Shown here piece after piece: positions 1-39,741 of a stretch of 64,000 bases of DNA. Source of the stretch: Alphaproteobacteria bacterium. Lineage in GTDB: Bacteria > Pseudomonadota > Alphaproteobacteria > Micavibrionales > UBA2020. Every line of letters begins with the position of its first letter. The stretch's first letter is position 1. The translations under genes were made by a program, and so were the position numbers. The stretch spans positions 124,001 through 188,000 of the forward strand of contig JAEUKT010000002.1 of assembly GCA_016794125.1 (NCBI GenBank), in the 5' to 3' direction. The notes beneath the pieces were generated by a model that was given only the letters and a program-made list of their open reading frames with translations, did no database searches and had not been told where the DNA came from.

Positions 1-495
1 ACGGCATCTGCCGACGAAAAACTGGCATTGGTGCGCGATATCAACCGCGTCGAGCCTGTGTATAAATTCAGCCCCGATGACAGCATCGTGGAAACCCTGC
101 CGCTTGCCTTTTACCCCGGCGGGCAGCTTGTGTCGATCGTCAAGCCCATGCCGCTTCAGCCTCAATTGTGGTACGTGAAGCTGCCCGAAGAAATCGTCAA
201 CCTTGACGGTTCGACCGCCAATATCCATCACCTGAACGACCGCGCGCCGCTGCAGTTATCGCAACAGACCATCGCCGACTACCTGAAATTCCGCCTCTAT
301 TTCGCCGGAAATATGTGGATGGAAGGCGTGGTGGCGATCGAGGCAGCCGAGGGCTTTCATGCGACCGCGCGCGTTCTGGAACAGGAAGGCCTGTTCGAAA
401 AAAAATTCACGGTTAGCCCGCGCGGCGAAATCACCCTGCAAAGCAAGAAAAAGCTGGGCAGCGGCAAGCGCGTCCCCGACCGCTTCAGCTTTTAA
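1..495 (+). CDS. Partial unknown protein, 3' end only
   Basis: The frame is open from the first base of the window and ends at a TAA (493-495), so this is the C-terminal part (about 164 residues) of a longer protein. A TTG at 28 is inside the coding frame and is not a credible start. I see no signal peptide, membrane segment or recognisable catalytic motif; the visible part is mixed alpha/beta in character and ends in a basic stretch (GKRVPDRFSF). I do not recognise the family. Its stop overlaps the stop of the convergent acyltransferase-ligase gene by four bases, so neither gene has room for a terminator here. Confidence 0.7.
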   Translation, partial: TASADEKLALVRDINRVEPVYKFSPDDSIVETLPLAFYPGGQLVSIVKPMPLQPQLWYVKLPEEIVNLDGSTANIHHLNDRAPLQLSQQTIADYLKFRLYFAGNMWMEGVVAIEAAEGFHATARVLEQEGLFEKKFTVSPRGEITLQSKKKLGSGKRVPDRFSF

Positions 496-3400
496 GCCTC
501 CGCCGCCATTTTCTGCAGCCGCACGTAATCGGTTTTGCCCGTACCCAACACGGGAATTTCCGACGGCACGATCTTTTTCGGCACCGACAACTCGCTTAAA
601 CCTGACGCCTTGAAATGCGCGGAAATCGCATCGGACACTGCGTTCGGATAGGTCGTGAACAGGATCAGCTTCTCGCCCTTCTTGTCGTCCTTAACGCTCA
701 CAACCGCGTGCTGGTGGCCCGGCCAGAGTTTTTGCAACGCCATTTCAACAGCGGTCAGCGACACCATTTCGCCTGCGATTTTCGCAAAGCGTTTCATGCG
801 CCCCTTGATGGTGATAAAGCCGTCTTCATCCAGCGCCACGATATCGCCGGTATCGTACCAGCCTTCATCGGGCGGCTGCAAAATACCGGGGGCATCGGCC
901 TTCAGGTAGCCCATCATCACGTTGGGCCCGCGCATGACCAGCTTGCCGGAATTTTCCTCGATCCCCTCGACCTGTTCGAGTTTGTGGTCGATGCCGGGCA
1001 TCAGGCGGCCGACGCTGCCGGCCTTGTTGTGCATCGGCGTGTTGATCGAAATGACCGGCGCGGTTTCGGTCGCGCCATATCCTTCGAAAATCCGCACGCC
1101 GTATTTTTCGGCATAGACGCGGCGCGTCTCGTCCTTCAGCTTCTCCGCACCTGCAAACACGTAGCGGATAGCGTGGAAATCGTACGGATGCGCAAAACGC
1201 GCATAACCCGAAAGGAAGGTGTCCGTGCCGAACAGGATGGTCGCATTCGTGTCGTAAATCAGTTCCGGCACGATGCGGTAATGCAGCGGCGACGGGTAAT
1301 AAAACGCACGCATGCCGGACAGGATCGGCAGCAGCGTGCCGCCGGTCAGACCGAAGGAATGGAACATCGGCAGGCAGTTGAACACGATGTCCTTCGGGCC
1401 GAAATCGATACGGCTCGCCACCTGATAGCGGTTGGACTGGATGTTCCGGTGCGACAGGACGACGCCCTTGGGCGTACCTTCCGAGCCGGAGGTGAACAGG
1501 ATAACCGCAGGATCATGCGCGCTGGCCTTGCGGCGGAAGCTATCAAGCGTTGCGGGCATATAACGCGCGGCGAGGCCGTAGAGCCGTTCGACAAAGCCGA
1601 TTTCGGCGCGCAAATCCTCCAGATACACGAATTCGACGCCGACCGCCTGCATCGCCTCGATCGTCGGGCCCATCTTGCCCATCTCGATAAAGCGGCGCGA
1701 AGTGATGACGGTTTTCAGCTTCGCCGTTTCGCAGGCGCTGACGACCTGCGCAGGGCCAGAGGAAAAATTGATCATCGCCGGCACTTTGCGCAGCGCATGG
1801 AGCGCAAAAAAGGCGACTGATGTGCCAACCATGTTCGGCAGCAGCACCCCGACGGCAGGTATCGTCGCGCCTTCGCCCGTTTTCAGGCGCTTGTCCATGA
1901 CCTTGGCCAGTACAAAGGCACGGCTGATGAAGTCGCGGTAGGTGACAGGCTCGCGCAAGGGGTCTTCTGCGATGATATGCTTGGTGCCATAGAGGCGCGA
2001 TGCCGACATCAGGGAGGTAAACAGCGGCTTGTCGATTTCGCTGGCATCGAACACCATTTGCGACATCATGTCATACAGCTGCGCGCCCGCGAGCTGGCGG
2101 CGGCGGCGGCCGAAGACACCTTCCGGCAGTTCGAACTTGCGTGGCGGCAGGATGGTCATGGTGATCTTGGGAAAACGGCGCAGCACGGTTTTTCCGGCGG
2201 AGCGGGAGAACGGCGTATATTGCGCGCCGTCGATGCGTATCGGCAGCACCATCGCGCCCGCTTTGTCGGCGATCATGCCGGGGCCTTCATAGACCTTCAT
2301 CAGCGAGCCGGTCATCGAAATGCGGCCTTCGGGAAAAATCATGCCCGTCTTGCCGCTCTTTACTACGTCGATCAGCGATTTCAGCGCCAGCGGATTGGTG
2401 GGATCGACCGGATAGGCATCGACCATGCGGAGCAAGGGTTTCATCCACCACGCCCGCGCGATGTAGGTATTGACGGCAAAAGTGATCTTGTTCGGAAGGT
2501 ACGCAGCAATCAGCGCAGCATCTAGGAACGAAGTGTGGTTCGCGATAATCAGCACGCGGTCGCCCGCTTTCTCGAAATTCTCCAGCCCCTTCACTTCGAC
2601 GTTATACGCCCATTTGAAAATCGCGCGGCAGACGGAACGCAGCAGCGCGTCCGGCAGCAATTGCACGATGTAAATGGCGACAAGGATATCCATCAGCGCC
2701 ATAGCAAGGAAAATGCCCGGGATGCTGGCACCCGCCTTGAGCAGCACCGCGCCGATGATGGACGACGCCACCATGAACAGCGCGTTCATGATATTCAGCC
2801 CCGCAATCATGCGCGCCATGTAATTGGGGTCGGTGCGTTTTTGAACGATGGCATAAAGCGGCACGACGAACATCCCGCCCGACACCGCAATCGCCAGCAG
2901 GTCGGCCACGATGCGCCAGTTGCCGGGCTGCGACAGGAAGGTGGATGCCGTCAGCAGGTTCGGCTGCGGCGGCAGCGCGGCATTGGCTGCAAAATAAAGG
3001 TCGATGCCGAACACCGCCATGCCGATTGCCGCGAGCGGCACATAGGTCGCCTGCACCTGCCCCTTCAACAGTTTCGAGCAAAGGACCGAACCAGCAGCAA
3101 TACCGACCGAGAATAGCGTCAGCAGCAGCGTCACGACGCTTTCATCGCCGCCCAGATAAATTTTGGCGAAGGCGGGGAATTGCGTCAGATAGGTCGCCCC
3201 CACCAGCCAGAACCATGAAACCGCAAGAATGGCGCGGTAAATGCCGGTATTTTCCTGCGTTGCCGCCAGAATTTTCTGTGTTTCCTCCCAGAAGTTGCGG
3301 TTGATGACGAGGTCAGGCGATGGGCCCGGCGCCGCCGGAATGAACCGGCTGGCGCAATACCCCGCTACAGCGACCGTTACACAGGCGACGGAAATAATAA

Positions 3401-3914
3401 CTTCTCCCAATTCGCGATGCGCAATCAGCACACCGCCCGCAATCGTGCCCAACAGGATCGCCATAAACGTGCCTGCCTCGACATAGGCGTTGCCGCTCAG
3501 CAATTCTTTGCCTTCAAGATGCTGGGGCAGAACCGCGTATTTCACGGGCCCGAAAAAAGTGGAATGCAGCCCCATGCAGAACAGCACGACGAACAGCACG
3601 AACAGGCTATGCGTCAGGAAACCTACCGCCGCCAGCAGCATAAAGCCGATCTCAGCGATCTTCACATACTGCGCAATCCGTGCGCGGTCGATTTTATCCG
3701 CGAACTGCCCTGCTGTGGCGGAGAACAGGAAGAACGGCAGGATAAACACCCCCGCCGCCATGGTGACCAGTATTTGCGGCGGGATCGAGGTTTCCGTCGC
3801 AAGCCGGAAAGTGATGAGCATCGCCATCGCCGTCTTGAACAGGTTGTCGTTGAACGCGCCCAGGAATTGCGTCAGGAACAGCGGAAAAAACCGCCGCGAT
3901 TTCAGGATGGACAT
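492..3914 (-). CDS. aas: MFS / PlsC acyltransferase / acyl-ACP ligase fusion (Aas-type)
   Basis: This 1140-residue protein fuses three functions used in lysophospholipid recycling. Residues 1 to about 420 form an LplT-like MFS transporter with many membrane segments. Residues about 435-640 form a PlsC-type acyltransferase with the NHTSFLD motif (H460, D465) and FPEGR (527-531). The remainder is an AMP-forming acyl-CoA/ACP synthetase with the P-loop-like FTSGSEGTPKG and a YDTGD motif. In E. coli LplT and Aas are separate neighbours that import and reacylate lysophosphatidylethanolamine at the inner membrane; here the flippase is joined to the enzyme. Start ATG follows a GAGGGGCG ribosome-binding site. 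The gene lies downstream of pepA on the same strand (58-base gap). The architecture is clear; the exact lipid substrate is inferred. Confidence 0.9.
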   Translation of the reverse strand: MSILKSRRFFPLFLTQFLGAFNDNLFKTAMAMLITFRLATETSIPPQILVTMAAGVFILPFFLFSATAGQFADKIDRARIAQYVKIAEIGFMLLAAVGFLTHSLFVLFVVLFCMGLHSTFFGPVKYAVLPQHLEGKELLSGNAYVEAGTFMAILLGTIAGGVLIAHRELGEVIISVACVTVAVAGYCASRFIPAAPGPSPDLVINRNFWEETQKILAATQENTGIYRAILAVSWFWLVGATYLTQFPAFAKIYLGGDESVVTLLLTLFSVGIAAGSVLCSKLLKGQVQATYVPLAAIGMAVFGIDLYFAANAALPPQPNLLTASTFLSQPGNWRIVADLLAIAVSGGMFVVPLYAIVQKRTDPNYMARMIAGLNIMNALFMVASSIIGAVLLKAGASIPGIFLAMALMDILVAIYIVQLLPDALLRSVCRAIFKWAYNVEVKGLENFEKAGDRVLIIANHTSFLDAALIAAYLPNKITFAVNTYIARAWWMKPLLRMVDAYPVDPTNPLALKSLIDVVKSGKTGMIFPEGRISMTGSLMKVYEGPGMIADKAGAMVLPIRIDGAQYTPFSRSAGKTVLRRFPKITMTILPPRKFELPEGVFGRRRRQLAGAQLYDMMSQMVFDASEIDKPLFTSLMSASRLYGTKHIIAEDPLREPVTYRDFISRAFVLAKVMDKRLKTGEGATIPAVGVLLPNMVGTSVAFFALHALRKVPAMINFSSGPAQVVSACETAKLKTVITSRRFIEMGKMGPTIEAMQAVGVEFVYLEDLRAEIGFVERLYGLAARYMPATLDSFRRKASAHDPAVILFTSGSEGTPKGVVLSHRNIQSNRYQVASRIDFGPKDIVFNCLPMFHSFGLTGGTLLPILSGMRAFYYPSPLHYRIVPELIYDTNATILFGTDTFLSGYARFAHPYDFHAIRYVFAGAEKLKDETRRVYAEKYGVRIFEGYGATETAPVISINTPMHNKAGSVGRLMPGIDHKLEQVEGIEENSGKLVMRGPNVMMGYLKADAPGILQPPDEGWYDTGDIVALDEDGFITIKGRMKRFAKIAGEMVSLTAVEMALQKLWPGHQHAVVSVKDDKKGEKLILFTTYPNAVSDAISAHFKASGLSELSVPKKIVPSEIPVLGTGKTDYVRLQKMAAEA

Positions 3915-20446: not shown

Positions 20447-20812
20447 CTGATCTTCTCGCCTGTAAGTTAACTGTATCAAAGTACCGTTATGTCCTTATTG
20501 AGCATTTTAGGAGAGGATTCCAGAACTGGCAAATCAAATCGTTTCGGTAATAAACGGAAAGCCTTTTGGATTTGAACATACGTTATAATTCAATAACTTA
20601 TTAACCGACTGACATCGTTAAATTTTCGTAAATATGGCGCTTGCGGTGCGACATGGTTTATGGCAAAACTAGCCCACTCCGCATGGGCAGCAGATTCGAT
20701 TCAAGGCTTGTGGAGGGATGGGCAAATTTTATATTTTCCAGCTCCCTCCCCGCGATTCTCCTCCCGCGCAAAACTTAGTTACGGAATCAATTTTTTACAA
20801 AAGGTGTGTCCC
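20447..20812. other. Intergenic region upstream of the TpsA gene
   Basis: 366 bases, clearly more AT-rich than the flanking genes. TATAAT at 20584-20589 is the best -10-like hexamer; I see no matching -35 at the normal spacing. The tpsA frame stays open upstream to 20660, but that stretch does not look coding. Nothing else is recognised. Confidence 0.5.
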
Positions 20813-23800
20813 ATGTCCCAGAACAAAGCCCAGAACTCCGCCCTGCGTCTCCTCAACGCAACGCTGATGGGTAAAAAACTGCTCGCCTCGACGGCGATCA
20901 CGGTGGCTGGCGTGCTGGCGGCATCTTCTTCGGCCTACGCGGTCGGCCTTGACGAAACACCCACGGGCGGCGTTGTCGTCGGCGGGCAGTCGACCATCTC
21001 CTACGGGCAGGGCAGCATGACGGTCGACCAGACGACCGACCGCTCCGTCATCAACTGGAACACCTTCAACATCGGCCAGAACGCGAACGCGACCTACAAC
21101 CAGCCGAACGCAAACTCCCTCTCCGTCAACCGCGTCAGCGGTCAGGACCCCTCGCAGATCCTGGGCACGCTGCGCTCCAACGGCAAGATCATGATCATCG
21201 ACCCGAACGGCGTGTTCTTCTCGAAAACCGCCGTCGTCGACGTGGGCGGCATTATCGCCACCACCGGCGAGCTGGATGCGATGAACCAGGACCAGCTGAT
21301 GGCCGGCAACAAGTTCCAGATTTCCAACATCGGCGCGAACCCCGACGCGAAAATCGAAAACGCGGGCTCGATCACCGCGGCGCAGGGCGGCCTTGTCGCC
21401 TTCGTGGCACCCTGGGTTTCCAACTCGGGCTTCATCAACGCGAAACTCGGCTCCGTGACGCTGGCGGCCGGCGCGAAAATGACGGTCGACCTGGCTGGCG
21501 ACAACCTGATTTCCATCGCCGTCGGCGACAAGCTGCAAAAAGCGCTGGTCGAAAACCGCGGCACCATCGACGCACAGGGCGGCCGCGTCGTCATGAGCGC
21601 GAACGCGGCGAAAGGCATCGTCGACGAAGTCATCAACATGTCCGGCGTCATCAAGGCCAACAGCTTCTCCCAAAAAGGCGGCAAGATCATCCTGGGCGGC
21701 GGCGGCGGCAAAGTGAAAGTCTCCGGCCAGCTGGATGCCAGCGGCGAAAAAGGCGGCGGCTCCATCGATGTGCGCGGCAAGGATATCGAGATCGAACAAT
21801 CGGCGGTCATTTCGGCTGACGCCAACGGCCAAGGCGACGGCGGCTCCGTCATCGTCTATGCCGACAACCTCGCCATCATCAACGGCGGCCTTTCCGCGCG
21901 CGGCGGCAAACAGGGCGGCAATGGCGGTTTCATCGAGACTTCCGGCAACGAGCTGGGCGTGAGCGACACCGCGTCGGTCGACGCATCGGCCTATTTCGGC
22001 GAAGCCGGCCTGTGGCTGCTTGATCCCCAAACCATCGTCATCACGACCGCCCCCACCTCGGTCTGGGCGGCGCTTACCGGCACGCCGCTGACAGACGGCA
22101 ACACGTATTCTACTCTTGGCTTCCAGGTCGTCAGCAATACGGTCCTCAGCACCGCGCTCAGCACCGGCGGCGGCACGAACGTCACCGTCCAGACGGGCGC
22201 CTCGACCAGCGGCACCACCTATGGCAGCAACGCCGGGAATAACAGCGTGGTTTCGGGCGACGGCGACATCATCGTGCGCAAGACCATCACGCATAACGGC
22301 AACAACAACGCCCTGCTGACGCTGACCGCGCATGACGACATCATCATGGAAAACGATGCCGACATCACTCACGGCACCGGCACCGGCAAACTCAGCGTCA
22401 CGATGAACGCCAACGGCGCGCATAACGACGATCTGGCCGACAACGGCGTGCTGGTGAAGACTGGCAGCGATATTTTCACCAATGGCGGCAACATCATTTT
22501 CAACACCCCGTCCAACGTCCGCGTCAGCGGCACGCTGGATGCGATACGCGCGGCGGACAACACGGGCGGCAACATCACCCTCAACAACGGCGGCCTTTTC
22601 TATGGCGCAGCCGACAGCCTGAAGACCAAGGGTATCGGCACAATCAGCCTGAACCAGAACGCCACCATCGGCGGCTACACGGTCGGCCCGCTTGCCGTCG
22701 TTTCGTCGATCCAGAACGCGATCGACGCCATTAGCAACACCGGCGACGGTCTGAACACCGTCAATGTCGGCGCCAGCCTGTTGTGGACGGAAACCGTCGC
22801 TGCGGATCACAAGAACCTCCTCATCAAGGGCGCAGCTGCCTACGGCTCCACCTTCGCGCTCGGCGGCTTCGATGTCAGCGCGACCAATGTCACCATCGAC
22901 GGCTTCAACTTCGCGGCGCTGTCCTCCGGCATCAACGTGACCGGCACGAATGACTCGGTCATCAACAACAAATTCAGCGTCATGGGATCTGGCGTCACCT
23001 CGACCGGCTCGACCGGCCTTGATGTGAAGAACAACACCTTCACCGGCATCCTCGGCACCGCCGTCTCGCTGACCGGCACGACCGGCGCGGAAGTTTCCGG
23101 CAACACGCTGACCGCTTCGGTCGGCGATGCCGTGACCGTCACGGGCGGCACGGGCAACGCGGTTTCGGGCAACAGCTTCCTGGGCAGCCTGCAGCACGCG
23201 GTCAACGTGAATGGCGGCGACACCGCTGTTTCCAACAACACGCTCACCGGTTCGGTCGGCGACGCGATCCTCGTTACCAACGGCGCGGGTGCATCCGTTT
23301 CCGGCAACACCCTGACCGGCTCCCTGCAAAAAGGCATCAACGTCAACGGCGGCAATACCGCCGTGACCGGCAACACCCTGACCGCGACCGTCGGCGACGG
23401 CATTTATGTGCTGAACGGCAACGGCGCAACCGTTTCCGGCAACCAGCTGCTGGGTTCGCTGTCCAAAGGCATCAACATTGAAAACGGCAACACCGCCGTT
23501 TCCAGCAACACCCTGACCGGCTCGGTCGGCGATGCAATCGTCGTGACCAACGGCGACGGCGCAAGCGTGTCGGGCAACCAGCTGCTGGGTTCCCTGCAGC
23601 ACGGCATCAACGTGAACGGCGGCAATACCTCCGTTTCGTCGAACACACTGACCGGTTCGGTCGGCGATGCGATCCTTGTCACGAACGGCAACGGCGCGAC
23701 CGTCACCTCCAACACCCTGCTGGGCTCGCTGTCGAAAGGCATCAACATCAACGGCGGCAACACGGCTGTCAGCCTCAATACCCTAACCGCGACTGTCGGC

Positions 23801-26800
23801 GACGGCATTTATGTGCTGAACGGCAACGGCGCGACCGTTTCCGGCAACAAGCTGCTCGGCTCGCTCTCCAAAGGCATCAACATTGAAAACGGCAACACCG
23901 CCGTTTCCGGCAACACGCTCACCGGTTCGGTCGGCGACGCGATCGTCGTGACCAACGGCGACGGCGCAACCGTGTCCGGCAACCAGCTGCTGGCAAGCCT
24001 GGCCAACGGCATCAACATCAACGGCGGCAATACCGACGTTACCTCCAACACCATGACCGGCACGGTCGGCGATGCGGTGCTGGTGACGGACGGCAACGGC
24101 GTGGATGTCGATAACAACACCATCATCGGCGGCCTTGCCAGCGGCGTGCATATCGTGGGCGGCGCGCTGATCGGCGTGACGGGCAACGATATCGGCGGCA
24201 CCGCGGGCGCAGGCATCCTGTCGTCGGGCACCACCGGCCTGACGGTTGACGGCAACACCCTGATCGCAACCGGCCTGACCAACAACGCCGACGCGATCCA
24301 TGTGGATACCGCGACCAATGCGCAAGTGAAGAAAAACACTGTCATCGGCACCGGCGGCAACGGCATCTATGTCAATTCCAACGGCGGTTCCGTTTCGGAC
24401 GGCAACAGCATCATCGGCGCGGCCAAGAACGCGATCCAGCTGGACAACAGCACGGGCGTGGACGTTTCCGGCAACATCGTGCTGGGCGCGGCGCAGGACG
24501 GCGTGGCAGTCACCGGCGGCGCGGACAACACGGTCGCGGGCAACGCGATCGGCGTGGTCGGCGGCCACGGCATCTCCGGCCTGAATTCCGGCAACCTGAC
24601 CATCAACGGCCTGAACATTATCGCGGGCGCGCAGAAAGACGGCATCCATGTCGAAGGAGGCAACAGCCTTGACGTGTCCGGCAACCTGGTCGTGCTGTCC
24701 AATGAAAACGGCATCTCCATCGACGGCGGCGCGGGCGGCGCAGCCGATGCGACGGTTTCGGGCAACATCGTGCTGGCGGCCACCAACGGCGACGGCATCC
24801 GCGTCGCGAATATCGACGGCCTTGACCTGAACGGCAACGTCGTCGCTCTCGCCGGCGACAACGGCATCGAACTGAACAAGGTCAACAACGCCGATGTCAC
24901 CCTGAACGCGGCGGGCGGATCGAAAAACCACGCGCTGCTGCTGAAGGACGTGACGAATACCGAAGTCACCCTCAACGCCTTCGGCCTCACCACCTCGACC
25001 GCCGCCGAAGAAGGCGACGGCGTGCATGTGGACGGCGGCGACACCATCGAGATCACCGGCAACCTGATCGGCGAAACCAATGACGACGGCATCGAAGTCA
25101 CCGGCGGCGCGAAAAACATGAAGCTTGGCCTGAACGCCATCCTGAACGCGGGCCAGGACGGCATCGACGTGAACAACGCGACCGACACCGACGTCAACCT
25201 GAACGTCATCACCAACGCCGGCGACAACGGCATCGAGGTCGTGAACGCGACCAACGCCAACATCACCGGCAACGGCATCATCAATGCCGGCAACAACGGC
25301 ATCTTCGTCGACCCCTCGACCGGCATCACCGCGCTGAACATCATCACGGGCGCCGCGAATAACGGCATCCAGATCGTCGACAGCAACGGCTGGACCGTGG
25401 CGGCGAACGCCGTGCTGAATTCCGGCAATGACGGCATCCATATCGACAATTCGGACGACGCAATTGTCGGCCTGAACTATGTCGAAGGCTCGCAGAACAA
25501 CAACATCCATGTCGAAGACAGCAACGGCGTCATCGTCGCGGCAAACATCGTCAAGGACAGCGTGAACGGCAACGGCATCGACCTGCTGCGCAGCAACAGC
25601 ACGCTGGTCACGCTGAACGCGGTTTCCGGCAGCGGCAACAACGGCATCGCGGGCGATACCGTCGAAGACACGATCATCGCCCTGAACGCCGTTTCCGGTT
25701 CGGGCAATGACGGCATCCATGTCGACCGCGCGGACGACACGCTCATCACCCTGAACGACGTCTCCGGCTCGACCGATGACGGCATCGATGTTGCGAACGC
25801 GAACAACACCGCCATCGCACTGAACAAAGTCGGCACTTCGGGCGACAACGGCATCGACACCTTCAAGACCACCAACCTGCTGATCGCGGCGAACGCGGTT
25901 ACCGGTTCGGGCAATGATGGCATCCATGTCGACGGCGCTGATGACACCATCATCACCCTGAACGATGTGTCCGGCTCGACCGATGACGGCATCGATGTTG
26001 CGAATGCGAACAACACCGCCATCGCGCTGAACAAAGTCGGCACTTCGGGCGATAACGGCATCGACACCTTCAAAACCACCAACCTGCTGGTGGCCGCAAA
26101 CGCGGTTACCGGTTCGGGCAATGATGGCATCCATGTCGACGGCGCTGATGACACCATCATCACCCTGAACGATGTGTCGGAATCCAAGGACGACGGGATT
26201 GACGTGGCGGCGGCGAACGATACCGCCATCGCGCTCAACAAAGTCACCACCTCGGGCGATAACGGCATCGATACCCTCGGCACCCGCAACCTGCTGGTGG
26301 CCGCGAACGCGGTCAGCGGTTCTGGCAACGATGGCATCCATGTTGCGCTGGCCGACGACACCATCATCACCCTGAACGATGTGTCGGAATCGAAAGACGA
26401 CGGCATTGACGTGGCGGCGGCGAACGATACCGCCATCGCGCTCAACAAAGTCACCACCTCGGGCGACAACGGCATCGATACGCTCGGCACCGCCAACCTG
26501 CTGGTGGCCGCAAATGCCGTGTCCAAATCTGGCAATGACGGCATCCATGTCGCAGGCGCGCTGGGCACGCTGATCACCCTGAACGACGTGTCGGAATCGA
26601 AAGACGACGGCATCGACCTGGGCGCGGCGGCGGGCAGCATCATCGCCCTCAACAAAGTGTCGAAATCGGGCGACAACGGCATCGATACCGTCGCAACCGC
26701 CGGCACCGTGATCGCGGCAAACGCGGTTTCGGAATCGGGTAATGACGGCATCCACGCCAACTTCGCACTCGGCACCCTGATCGCGCTGAACGATGTGACC

Positions 26801-29062
26801 GGCTCCGGCCACAACGGCATTGACGTCGACAACGCGGCGCTGACCGAAATCGCGCTGAACAGCGTATCGGCTTCGGGCCACAACGGCATCGACCTGCGCA
26901 ACGCGGCCGCAACCGGCATCCACCTGAACAACGTGAACGGCGCAGGCAATGACGGCATCCACGTGAAGAACGCGGCGCTGACCGATATCTCGCTGAACAA
27001 TGTGTCGGATGCGCAAGGCGACGGCATCGATGTCGATAAGGCGCTGCTGACCAACATCGCGTTCAACAAGGTCGAACGCTCCGGCGACAACGGCATCGAG
27101 CTGACCGACGCCTTCGGCACGCTGGTCACGCTGAACAACATCAGCGTATCCGGCAACGACGGCATCCACGCGAAAAACGTGCTGGGCACCACCATCGCGC
27201 TCAACACGGTTTCGGCGTCCAACGACGACGGCATCGATGTCGATGACGCAACCGGCACGATCATCGCGCTGAACGCGGTGAACGGTTCGGGCAGCAACGG
27301 CATCGAACTGACCGACGCCTTCGGCACGCTGGTCGCCTTCAACGGCGTCACGGGCAGCGGCGAAAACGGCATCTATGCCGACAACGCCAACGCAACCGCG
27401 CTGTTCGGCAACGATGTGGCGGGCAGCTATATCAACGGCATCGCCGTGCGCAACAGCGACGATGTGGCGATCGCCTATAACCGCGTCACCGGCACCACCT
27501 ACGGCGACGGCATCATCGTCGAAAACGGCGACAATGTCGGCATCACCGGCAACAACGTCAGCGATGTAGGCAACAACGGCATCACCGCCGATTACGTGAG
27601 CAACCTGTCGGTCAACGACAACCGCGTGACGGGCGGCGGCAATAACGGCATCGAAGTGATCTCGAGCGACGGCGCGCAAATCGCCGGCAACCATGTCGAG
27701 GGCTTCTTCAACGGCATCCGCGTGCTGTACAGCGACGCGGTCGACGTGATCGACAACTGCATCAGGTTTGTGCGCAACGACGGCATCCAGGCTTACTTCG
27801 CCGACAGCATCCACATCCTTGGCAACATGGTGTCGAACTACGGCGATGACGGCATCCAGGTCGCCTACAGCAACGGCGTGGTCCCCGAGCCCGAACTGCC
27901 GCCCACCGACGGCAACGGCAACGAGGACGGCAACGACGAAGGCGGCCAAATCAGCCGCATCGCCGCGAATGACGAAGCCCGCGACGGCCGCATCATCATC
28001 CAGGGCAACACCGTCATCGGCAATTACCAGGCGCCCGCCGGCGAAGAAGGCGGCGAGCAGCAGACCGACCGCCAGGCCGCCTATAAAGGCGACTACGGCG
28101 CGACGACCGGCATCCGCCTGGGCGACAACGAAGGCTTCTACGGCGAAGGCGAAATCCAGCCGCAGGTCATCAACGGCGTCTATGGCGATTTCAGCGGCGT
28201 CGGCAACGTGCTGGTGGATGACAACGACATCGTGAACAACAATGTCGGCCTCGATGCCCGCGCGTACAACAACGGCACCATCGAAATCTCCGGCAACCGC
28301 TTCACGCAGAACGATATCGGCGCGTGGATCGGCTCGGGCCTGATCGACCTGACCGGCAAGGGCAACACCTTCACCGGCGGATCGACCGCGCTGCGCTTCG
28401 AGCCTTCGATGGCTTACTACCCCGGCTACGACTACCCGCTGCCGGCGGTTGAAGGCCCGCAGGAACAGCCGGGCGGCTGGGTGTCCGCGAGCCTCAACCT
28501 CGTCGACAACTCGCTCGGCGCGCAGGTGTTCGAGCAGCAGACGAATTACTATGTCGACCTGCAAAACGGCGCGTTCTTCGCCCCCGACAGCCCCACCATC
28601 ATCGACGGCACGCTGGCGACCTATGACGGCGTGTCCGGCGGCCACATGACGATGGCGCAGTACCTGGCGATCGAGGCGATGCTGAACGATTACGACGACA
28701 ACAGCAGCCTCGGCCAGATCTTCGCAGGCTTCTTCGACATCGACGACAACCAGATCCTGCAAAAGGTCAAGGGCAACGGCTATCGCCCCGGCAAGGCAGG
28801 CATCACTGTTCTGGCGCTGCCGACCATCCCGACGGGCCCGACCAGCCACTTCTTCACCATCCAGGACCTGGCGGATATCGCGCCGGCGGCGGGCGGCGAC
28901 GATAACGGCACCCCGAACCCCGCAGCGCTTGGCAATATCGAGCCTGCGGCGGGCGCGGCGGCTTCCTGCTGGGGAGCGGTCGGCGGCAATGCCAACGTCA
29001 ACATCAACCTGAGCGAGGATGTGAGCAGCATTCTGGCCGATAACGCCAGCTGCCAGCAGTAA
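20813..29062 (+). CDS. Giant two-partner-secretion exoprotein (TpsA), beta-helix repeat adhesin
   Basis: About 2749 residues. A long signal peptide (cleavage after SAYA, residue 43) is followed by a TPS/haemagglutination domain (about 44-300: SYGQGSMTVDQTTDRSVINW, NQPNANSLSVNRV, ILGTLRSNGKIMIIDPNGVFF), the export signal read by TpsB. Residues about 600-2350 are right-handed beta-helix coils of 22-23 residues of the form N-x-V-x-G-S-G-N-D-G-I-x-V, like NosD/pectate-lyase repeats. Three long stretches are also duplicated at DNA level. The C-terminal 350 residues are non-repetitive and end with a Cys...Cys pair 28 residues apart (C2719, C2747). Only one other mature cysteine is visible (VIDNCIRF). 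I chose ATG 20813, which begins the n-region with GGTG upstream. Likely surface adhesin or matrix protein; the role is inferred. Confidence 0.92.
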   Translation: MSQNKAQNSALRLLNATLMGKKLLASTAITVAGVLAASSSAYAVGLDETPTGGVVVGGQSTISYGQGSMTVDQTTDRSVINWNTFNIGQNANATYNQPNANSLSVNRVSGQDPSQILGTLRSNGKIMIIDPNGVFFSKTAVVDVGGIIATTGELDAMNQDQLMAGNKFQISNIGANPDAKIENAGSITAAQGGLVAFVAPWVSNSGFINAKLGSVTLAAGAKMTVDLAGDNLISIAVGDKLQKALVENRGTIDAQGGRVVMSANAAKGIVDEVINMSGVIKANSFSQKGGKIILGGGGGKVKVSGQLDASGEKGGGSIDVRGKDIEIEQSAVISADANGQGDGGSVIVYADNLAIINGGLSARGGKQGGNGGFIETSGNELGVSDTASVDASAYFGEAGLWLLDPQTIVITTAPTSVWAALTGTPLTDGNTYSTLGFQVVSNTVLSTALSTGGGTNVTVQTGASTSGTTYGSNAGNNSVVSGDGDIIVRKTITHNGNNNALLTLTAHDDIIMENDADITHGTGTGKLSVTMNANGAHNDDLADNGVLVKTGSDIFTNGGNIIFNTPSNVRVSGTLDAIRAADNTGGNITLNNGGLFYGAADSLKTKGIGTISLNQNATIGGYTVGPLAVVSSIQNAIDAISNTGDGLNTVNVGASLLWTETVAADHKNLLIKGAAAYGSTFALGGFDVSATNVTIDGFNFAALSSGINVTGTNDSVINNKFSVMGSGVTSTGSTGLDVKNNTFTGILGTAVSLTGTTGAEVSGNTLTASVGDAVTVTGGTGNAVSGNSFLGSLQHAVNVNGGDTAVSNNTLTGSVGDAILVTNGAGASVSGNTLTGSLQKGINVNGGNTAVTGNTLTATVGDGIYVLNGNGATVSGNQLLGSLSKGINIENGNTAVSSNTLTGSVGDAIVVTNGDGASVSGNQLLGSLQHGINVNGGNTSVSSNTLTGSVGDAILVTNGNGATVTSNTLLGSLSKGININGGNTAVSLNTLTATVGDGIYVLNGNGATVSGNKLLGSLSKGINIENGNTAVSGNTLTGSVGDAIVVTNGDGATVSGNQLLASLANGININGGNTDVTSNTMTGTVGDAVLVTDGNGVDVDNNTIIGGLASGVHIVGGALIGVTGNDIGGTAGAGILSSGTTGLTVDGNTLIATGLTNNADAIHVDTATNAQVKKNTVIGTGGNGIYVNSNGGSVSDGNSIIGAAKNAIQLDNSTGVDVSGNIVLGAAQDGVAVTGGADNTVAGNAIGVVGGHGISGLNSGNLTINGLNIIAGAQKDGIHVEGGNSLDVSGNLVVLSNENGISIDGGAGGAADATVSGNIVLAATNGDGIRVANIDGLDLNGNVVALAGDNGIELNKVNNADVTLNAAGGSKNHALLLKDVTNTEVTLNAFGLTTSTAAEEGDGVHVDGGDTIEITGNLIGETNDDGIEVTGGAKNMKLGLNAILNAGQDGIDVNNATDTDVNLNVITNAGDNGIEVVNATNANITGNGIINAGNNGIFVDPSTGITALNIITGAANNGIQIVDSNGWTVAANAVLNSGNDGIHIDNSDDAIVGLNYVEGSQNNNIHVEDSNGVIVAANIVKDSVNGNGIDLLRSNSTLVTLNAVSGSGNNGIAGDTVEDTIIALNAVSGSGNDGIHVDRADDTLITLNDVSGSTDDGIDVANANNTAIALNKVGTSGDNGIDTFKTTNLLIAANAVTGSGNDGIHVDGADDTIITLNDVSGSTDDGIDVANANNTAIALNKVGTSGDNGIDTFKTTNLLVAANAVTGSGNDGIHVDGADDTIITLNDVSESKDDGIDVAAANDTAIALNKVTTSGDNGIDTLGTRNLLVAANAVSGSGNDGIHVALADDTIITLNDVSESKDDGIDVAAANDTAIALNKVTTSGDNGIDTLGTANLLVAANAVSKSGNDGIHVAGALGTLITLNDVSESKDDGIDLGAAAGSIIALNKVSKSGDNGIDTVATAGTVIAANAVSESGNDGIHANFALGTLIALNDVTGSGHNGIDVDNAALTEIALNSVSASGHNGIDLRNAAATGIHLNNVNGAGNDGIHVKNAALTDISLNNVSDAQGDGIDVDKALLTNIAFNKVERSGDNGIELTDAFGTLVTLNNISVSGNDGIHAKNVLGTTIALNTVSASNDDGIDVDDATGTIIALNAVNGSGSNGIELTDAFGTLVAFNGVTGSGENGIYADNANATALFGNDVAGSYINGIAVRNSDDVAIAYNRVTGTTYGDGIIVENGDNVGITGNNVSDVGNNGITADYVSNLSVNDNRVTGGGNNGIEVISSDGAQIAGNHVEGFFNGIRVLYSDAVDVIDNCIRFVRNDGIQAYFADSIHILGNMVSNYGDDGIQVAYSNGVVPEPELPPTDGNGNEDGNDEGGQISRIAANDEARDGRIIIQGNTVIGNYQAPAGEEGGEQQTDRQAAYKGDYGATTGIRLGDNEGFYGEGEIQPQVINGVYGDFSGVGNVLVDDNDIVNNNVGLDARAYNNGTIEISGNRFTQNDIGAWIGSGLIDLTGKGNTFTGGSTALRFEPSMAYYPGYDYPLPAVEGPQEQPGGWVSASLNLVDNSLGAQVFEQQTNYYVDLQNGAFFAPDSPTIIDGTLATYDGVSGGHMTMAQYLAIEAMLNDYDDNSSLGQIFAGFFDIDDNQILQKVKGNGYRPGKAGITVLALPTIPTGPTSHFFTIQDLADIAPAAGGDDNGTPNPAALGNIEPAAGAAASCWGAVGGNANVNINLSEDVSSILADNASCQQ
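23102..24181 (+). repeat. 135-bp tandem repeat array within tpsA (8 units)
   Basis: Units start at 23102, 23237, 23372, 23507, 23642, 23777, 23912 and 24047. Each encodes 45 residues, one 23-residue and one 22-residue coil, of the pattern NTLTGSVGDAI-VTNG-GA-VSGN then -LLGSL-KGIN-NGGNTAVS. Units 405 bases apart (23372 and 23777) are more alike than adjacent ones, pointing to duplication of a three-unit block. Confidence 0.9.
25685..27409 (+). repeat. 69-bp coil array in tpsA with 207-bp super-repeat
   Basis: The asparagine that opens every third coil recurs at 25685, 25892, 26099, 26306, 26513, 26720, 26927, 27134 and 27341, exactly 207 bases apart, so 24 consecutive coils have 23 residues with no insertion or deletion. 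The first five 207-bp units are close copies at DNA level; later ones keep the phase but differ in sequence. The three coils in a unit follow the types NAVSGSGNDGIHV, NDVSGSTDDGIDV and NKVGTSGDNGIDT. Confidence 0.9.
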
Positions 29063-38784: not shown

Positions 38785-39741
38785 ATGACAGCAAAGCCGA
38801 AAAAACAGCCCGCGACCAGCGCGGGTACAAGCCTGCGTTTCGATTTCAACGCAGCGGCCAAACGCGCGCAGAAGGACCATCCCGAACTGCGCGGCAATAT
38901 GCTGTTCATCCATGCGGGCGCGGTTGCGCCCGACGCGCATTCGGACGACCTTGTCAATCAGGGCGTCGATGACGATGAAATCACCGATGTCGAAAAAATG
39001 GTGCGCGACGCGAAACGCCTGAAGACATCGTTCCATCTGGCGGTCAGCCGCGAGGGAAAAAAGAAACCGCTGGGCGTGCTGGTGTTCCACCCCGACCGCC
39101 ATGCGGTGTTCGGCCCAAAACCCGGCGCAGCGGATGACTTTGCCACTTTTGATCATGAAACCGGCCATGCGCTGCTGCCCCAGTTTAACGGCACGAAAAG
39201 CGAAAACGCCGCCGACGGTTTCGCGGCGCTGCGCCATTACCAGCGGTTCGATGCCGATGCGCGCGCGAACCTGGAATATGCCGGATGGAAACGCGCGGCG
39301 GTCGCCATGCTGCTGGGCAAAAACTCGCACCTCACCACCTTCACGCTGGATAAAATCATCTGCGACGCGCAAACGGCAAATTTTTCCAGCCTGACACCCG
39401 CGCAGACGAAAAAGATCGCGGCGGAATATGCGGAAAAATGCACGCCGTCGGCAAAGCGCCTTGCAAAAATCGGCCACGACTTCGCGCCCTTGAAAAACAT
39501 GAAGCCGCAGGAAGCGATGGAAAAACTGGCGGCCATCACGCTGAAGGCCAAGCCCGACTCGGACACGTTTTACCTGGGCGCGCGCGTGCTGGCGGGGGCG
39601 TTTGCCAAGGGCGGCATCCGGCTGAACGGCAGGAAAATCGACCTCAGCGGCGCGGAACATGCCCAGTTGCGAATGAAACTCGCTGCAAAAATCGAAAAAA
39701 TGCCTAAAAATCATCAACTTAGGAAGATTGTGGTACTCTGA
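38785..39741 (+). CDS. Putative HETGH zinc metalloprotease, unknown family
   Basis: A 318-residue soluble protein. Residues 124-128 read HETGH, a perfect HExxH zinc-protease motif in the context TFDHETGHALLPQF. Twelve residues later comes ENAADGFAALRHY (140-152), which resembles the glutamate-containing E-x-x-A-D-x-F-A helix of ImmA/IrrE-type gluzincins and could supply the third ligand (E140). No signal peptide is visible. The C-terminal half (170-318) is helical with many lysines. Start 38785 has TAAGATAAA upstream, weak. No family name is assigned; peptidase activity is inferred from the motif only. Confidence 0.7.
   Translation: MTAKPKKQPATSAGTSLRFDFNAAAKRAQKDHPELRGNMLFIHAGAVAPDAHSDDLVNQGVDDDEITDVEKMVRDAKRLKTSFHLAVSREGKKKPLGVLVFHPDRHAVFGPKPGAADDFATFDHETGHALLPQFNGTKSENAADGFAALRHYQRFDADARANLEYAGWKRAAVAMLLGKNSHLTTFTLDKIICDAQTANFSSLTPAQTKKIAAEYAEKCTPSAKRLAKIGHDFAPLKNMKPQEAMEKLAAITLKAKPDSDTFYLGARVLAGAFAKGGIRLNGRKIDLSGAEHAQLRMKLAAKIEKMPKNHQLRKIVVL

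Follow-up and report, generated by a model that had tools for sequence, protein, structure and literature searches.

The locus

The window, that is, the whole stretch of 64,000 nucleotides that was analysed, carries on its forward strand a gene for a protein of 318 residues (the query), whose features are collected in Table 1. Orthologues share 91%, 81% and 42-50% identity with the query, and dN/dS values of 0.138 and 0.219 were obtained for the two nearest of them and 0.271 for a third, for which dS (1.7) is near saturation. Judged from these comparisons, the gene is under purifying selection. No signal peptide was seen in the query when the sequence was judged by eye. Its neighbours are an alpha/beta hydrolase gene and a 197-aa gene for which no Pfam family exceeds its cut-off, and the two closest species have both of them beside it as well. 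In three congeneric species at greater distance it lies near a dicarboxylate symporter gene and a gene for an NAD-binding dehydrogenase of the hydroxyisobutyrate type. Elsewhere in the window, a protein of 2800 aa (20660-29062, plus strand) has 13 stretches matching a right-handed beta-helix model and is possibly a large surface or secreted protein, and a fusion protein of 1140 aa (492-3914, minus strand) joins MFS transporter, acyltransferase and AMP-binding domains.

Table 1. Features of the query gene and its product (positions are those of the window)
Feature	Residues	Position	Strand	Basis
Putative gluzincin gene, 318 aa		38785..39741 (incl. stop)	+	Open frame from ATG; orthologues; dN/dS 0.14-0.27
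N-terminal alpha/beta part	21-101	38845..39087	+	AlphaFold2; mean pLDDT 94-98 per ten-residue block, 21-100
Active-site helix	115-130	39127..39174	+	AlphaFold2 model
HETGH; putative zinc ligands H124 and H128, putative general base E125	124-128	39154..39168	+	Conservation
Glutamate helix	136-177	39190..39315	+	AlphaFold2 model
E140-N-A-A-D144 (ExxxD); putative third ligand E140, putative buttressing D144	140-144	39202..39216	+	Conservation
H182 in SHLTTFTLDKI motif; candidate transition-state-stabilising histidine	182	39328..39330	+	H182 in 53/55, T184 in 52/55
C-terminal mostly helical region; possibly substrate-selecting	205-318	39397..39738	+	AlphaFold2 model

Conserved motifs

The second histidine of HETGH is followed twelve residues on by E140, with 11 residues between them. 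Conservation was assessed in an alignment of 55 family members, reduced from 79 profile hits by excluding identical copies and one further member (L041:3610-4653, 135.5 bits), which by eye retains HExxH and ExxAD. The N-termini of several members, taken from the earliest start codon in the frame, may be too long, and one member (L019) starts near a contig edge. H124 and D144 are present in all 55 sequences and E125, H128 and E140 in 54; A143 (54), A147 (53), Q153 (51), H182 (53) and T184 (52) are also conserved. An HExxH of any kind arose in 2.0% of 200,000 shuffles of the query protein, and HExxH with ExxAD 8-40 residues further on in 0.024% of 200,000. The query's HExxH is the sole one in the 51 genes (19,583 aa) found in the window by a simple gene finder, for which shuffles expect 0.38. 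Conservation is a stronger test here than shuffling, and the earlier note's reading of HETGH as a real HExxH stands, given its conservation in 54 of 55 members and the rarity of the motif pair in shuffles. The one aligned member that lacks HExxH, L057:5689-6519 (minus strand) from a genome of the same genus, has DAARL instead while its later motifs are retained, and may therefore be a pseudo-enzyme, that is, a possible pseudo-peptidase.

The short distance between HExxH and the glutamate had been put forward as a distinguishing mark of the protein. This is not the case, because the gap is 13-14 residues in DUF4344 proteins, 12 in an ImmA/IrrE-type protein (L115) and anything from 11 to 36 across the 54 members of the query's own family that have the motif pair.

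Predicted structure

An AlphaFold2 model of the whole query, for which the 55-member alignment served as input, had a pLDDT of 92.4 and a pTM of 0.90, and a model of the catalytic part alone (residues 14-202) had a pLDDT of 93.4. The N-terminal part is modelled with helices at 21-31, 53-58 and 63-79 and strands at 39-43, 83-87 and 96-101. The HExxH helix leads through a five-residue turn into the glutamate helix, and the order and lengths of these predicted helices agree with a one-metal site for H124, H128 and E140. E140, conserved in all but one member and placed by the model on the helix that follows the HExxH helix, is the likely third zinc ligand, as had been proposed. The single helical C-terminal domain of 170 residues that had also been described does not appear in the model: residues 136-177 belong to the glutamate helix, the loop that follows carries H182, and the tail proper spans about 205-318 and includes a beta hairpin at 277-286.

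Foldseek searches of the PDB and BFVD with the whole query and with the catalytic part found nothing at E <= 0.001, and sequence searches of solved structures returned chance-level rows only (E 0.76 and 0.54). In a second look with VIA, in which Z below 8 may reflect merely a common arrangement and the values obtained here lie in the range of which the tool so warns, the best match of the catalytic part was DPP III (5zum; Z 7.0, 148 residues aligned, 3.8 Å), and a crosslink-repair protease entry (6mdw; Z 6.6, 101 aligned, 3.4 Å), Pz peptidase (3ahm; Z 6.4, 144 aligned, 3.5 Å) and neurolysin (5lv0; Z 6.4, 151 aligned, 4.2 Å) were also matched, whilst the whole protein gave DPP III (Z 8.3), Pz peptidase (6.5) and again DPP III (6.4). 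Gluzincins head the VIA ranking, with DPP III and the M3 peptidases ahead of ACE2 entries, lethal-factor entries, CapP, Zmp1 and PPEP-1. Judged mainly by their titles, chains of metallopeptidases make up 37 of the 50 listed rows for the catalytic part and 24 of the 50 for the whole protein; the other rows (13 and 26, respectively) are unrelated and often helical proteins, among them eIF2B, designed armadillo proteins and 14-3-3. Five lethal-factor rows in the list for the catalytic part align to the N-terminal domain of lethal factor (residues about 47-251), which is presumably not its catalytic domain. The argument for a predicted gluzincin fold is the consistency of the top of the VIA list, at modest scores.

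Extent of the family

The query's own genome holds nine family members by profile search (eight by single-sequence search), and members of the family often stand in tandem. Of the 18 genomes in its taxonomic family, 17 have matches, at 4-11 places each, and 23 of 55 relative genomes match in all, the query's own included; the six matching genomes among the 37 others of the order all belong to one other family. A class-wide draw matched 13 of 289 genomes, the query's own included, the other 12 being from outside the order (best E 3.8e-13, for the most part in open frames of greater length). A phylum-wide draw matched 7 of 398, and apart from the query's own genome the matches had E values no better than 3.8e-5. 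Since no more than 7 or 8 candidates per genome were scored in these draws, the copy numbers from them are lower bounds. Six of the class-wide proteins from outside the order had no Pfam match at E <= 0.01. Long HExxH proteins of 507-754 aa from other alphaproteobacteria (L085, L087, L089, L093 and L098) match the family profile weakly and gave no Pfam domain at E <= 0.01. Not every match from outside the order is trusted, since the weakest class-wide row, L096, resembles FtsH by eye.

In a tree of the 55 rows the query falls in a clade of 12 orthologues (support 99/99), drawn from 12 genomes including its own, two of which belong to a different family in the order, and these 12 rows are exactly those with a gap of 11. 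The tree contains older groups common to several genera as well as groups confined to one genome, and four neighbouring copies in L052 group together (support 92/91), their internal order being unsettled.

Relation to known families

No Pfam, NCBIfam or PHROGs family covers the query. Several matches were set aside as too weak, namely NCBIfam XopW, which the query matched at E 0.037 with 14 bits where the cut-off demands 200, the NCBIfam YpfJ zinc peptidase (2 of 55 members, best 0.0036), the PHROGs metallo-protease phrog_87 (2 of 55, best 0.0068) and PADLOC RmrA (1 of 55, best 2.4e-5). PADLOC peptidase_U41 matched 12 of the 55 members (best 1.4e-4), and PADLOC found nothing for the query itself. 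Together with the model and the conservation, these searches bear out the suggestion in the earlier note of a compact gluzincin-like site in a family without a curated model.

By sequence, the nearest known family is DUF4344 (PF14247), the query's only Pfam match (E 0.19). It is possible, though on balance doubtful, that the query family is a divergent branch of DUF4344 and not a separate family, in which case the enzyme would act in the same way. HExxH, ExxxD and a later histidine occur in the same order in ten DUF4344 proteins, chosen from 26 loci for the comparison; hhalign gave 91.3% and 93.6% (the latter over 43 columns), and seven of the 55 members match DUF4344, the best at E 2.4e-4. 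However, the hhalign alignments cover only 43-45 columns and little beyond the motif, the query's own score of 12 bits does not reach the cut-off of 29.6, and a search of its genome for PF14247 gave nothing at E <= 0.001. In addition, no counterpart was seen in the A1 consensus for R219, which is invariant in DUF4344, or for the C225 and C252 that are nearly so.

A closer kinship to ImmA/IrrE (PF06114, M78), to which the earlier note had likened the site, was not borne out. An hhalign comparison of the family with four M78 proteins from the query's own and related genomes gave 63% over 22 columns, and 82% over 20 columns when L115 was added as a fifth, a link that is confined to the surroundings of HExxH. 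With a limit of E <= 10, Pfam M78 did not come up for the query, although HMMER's filters discard weak matches, and it matched one of the 55 members (E 0.097); no Pfam HTH family matched the query, and its neighbours are not recognised HTH repressors. L115:1045-2133 is itself an ImmA/IrrE-type protein from the same order with an N-terminal HTH by eye, in which the gap from HELGH to the aligned glutamate is 12 (by eye), so that ImmA/IrrE proteins, too, can have a short gap. We consider it unlikely that the query acts like ImmA/IrrE or CapP, as a regulatory peptidase that cuts a transcription factor after a signal. Such a role would suit an HExxH protein without a signal peptide, and it is favoured by the hhalign value obtained with five M78 proteins, by the presence in the order of an M78 protein with so short a gap, by a match of the catalytic part to the CapP structure 7t5t (Z 4.8, 113 aligned, 5.0 Å) and by PADLOC capP in 3 of 55 members (best E 0.0032). 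It is opposed by the restriction of the profile link to HExxH, by the failure of PADLOC to find anything for the query and by the gene neighbourhoods, in that neither query neighbour is a recognised HTH gene and no HTH was recognised by eye in the first 70 residues of 47 neighbours.

Genomic context

The neighbours of the paralogues are mostly housekeeping-like (by eye, first 70 residues). No recurrent partner gene was recognised among them, and the neighbours that do recur seem, by eye, to be conserved blocks between related genomes. Two genes of the query's own genome (L041:4800-6766), which by eye contain repeats resembling those of ankyrin, separate one family member from another. Searches of viral contigs, phages and plasmids found no relative of the query.

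Multiple, divergent members in tandem arrays raise the question whether the family serves as a stock of effectors or toxins that enter other cells. DUF4344 is named among the domains of bacteria-killing T4SS effectors in an excerpt of PMC6536674, and polymorphic toxins are known to carry HExxH metallopeptidase domains, according to an excerpt of PMC3482391. The secretion-system searches, which covered VirB4 (T4SS) and VipB (T6SS sheath), speak against delivery by T4SS or T6SS, as the VirB4 family PF03135 is absent from the query's own genome and present in 1 of the 21 genomes searched, and VipB in none of the 21. No immunity-like partner was recognised among the 47 neighbours and the query is without a match in phages or plasmids, and an effector arsenal is accordingly judged improbable.

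It is just as improbable that the HExxH-E site belongs to a metalloenzyme other than a peptidase, or that its role is structural. An HExxH-domain 2-oxoglutarate oxygenase (8s5f) does appear in the VIA list (Z 4.2, 135 aligned, 6.5 Å), but peptidases outrank it and the putative general-base residue E125 is retained in 54 of 55 members. Finally, a chance pairing of HExxH and ExxAD in an unrelated helical protein is close to refuted by conservation of the pair in 54 of 55 members. HExxH alone turns up in shuffles at the 2% level, the pair only rarely.

Interpretation

As the motifs and the model together suggest, the query is likely to be a gluzincin-type zinc peptidase that is soluble and probably cytosolic. 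It belongs to an unnamed family that its alphaproteobacterial lineage has duplicated into many divergent copies. We regard it as a genuine and probably active gluzincin. What the analysis establishes is the sequence with its conservation, the copy number, the purifying selection and the predicted fold, and from these we infer zinc binding, catalysis, the roles of individual residues, location and substrate. The family is new, and the kind of enzyme is already known. In the proposed mechanism, H124 and H128 on the HExxH helix and E140 on the next helix would bind one zinc ion, E125 would activate water, D144 would buttress a ligand histidine and H182 would stabilise the tetrahedral intermediate. 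The strand region ahead of the HExxH helix may supply the edge strand that holds the substrate, the C-terminal helices may help to select it, and the divergent copies would each presumably serve their own protein substrates. A more speculative and rather unlikely proposal is that about four to eleven substrate-specific proteases per genome constitute an intracellular set, a lineage-specific regulated-proteolysis network of an undescribed gluzincin family, in which the rare motif-less members may regulate the active ones.

A gluzincin peptidase at this locus would enlarge the gluzincin-like proteins by a family for which no curated model exists, and would mean that within a single family anything between 11 and 36 residues can separate the zinc histidine from the ligand glutamate. 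That the family has expanded to 4-11 copies suggests an unusual importance of proteolysis in the lineage, and the profile built here lets members be annotated at once.

Comparison with known systems

Wss1 and Spartan are described as minigluzincin-like in an excerpt of PMC4559962. The query resembles the minigluzincins and the SprT/Wss1-like proteases in having a small gluzincin-like core, and the match to 6mdw belongs here. In SprT the third zinc ligand is a histidine, whereas the likely third ligand of the query is a glutamate; the query is also distinguished by its length of 318 aa with a helical tail. DPP III (M49) and the M3 oligopeptidases (5zum, 3ahm and 5lv0) are among the best VIA matches, in which the alignments take in 144-151 of the catalytic model's 189 residues, but their chains are 533-666 residues long, and the matches have Z values of 5.5-8.3 and 8-11% identity. 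ImmA/IrrE and CapP share with the query an HExxH with a later glutamate, although the gap is at least 26 residues (by eye) in the four other M78 proteins aligned. DUF4344, an uncharacterised putative metallopeptidase family, shares the HExxH, the ExxxD and the later conserved histidine in the same order. Its gap, too, is short, at 14 residues in nine of the ten proteins compared (in one case by an eye count) and 13 in the remaining one, against 11 in the query. It differs in that its alignment with the family is confined to about 45 columns and in that the residues conserved after the later histidine are different (by eye). Thermolysin offers a parallel for the same succession of HExxH, ExxxD and a later histidine.
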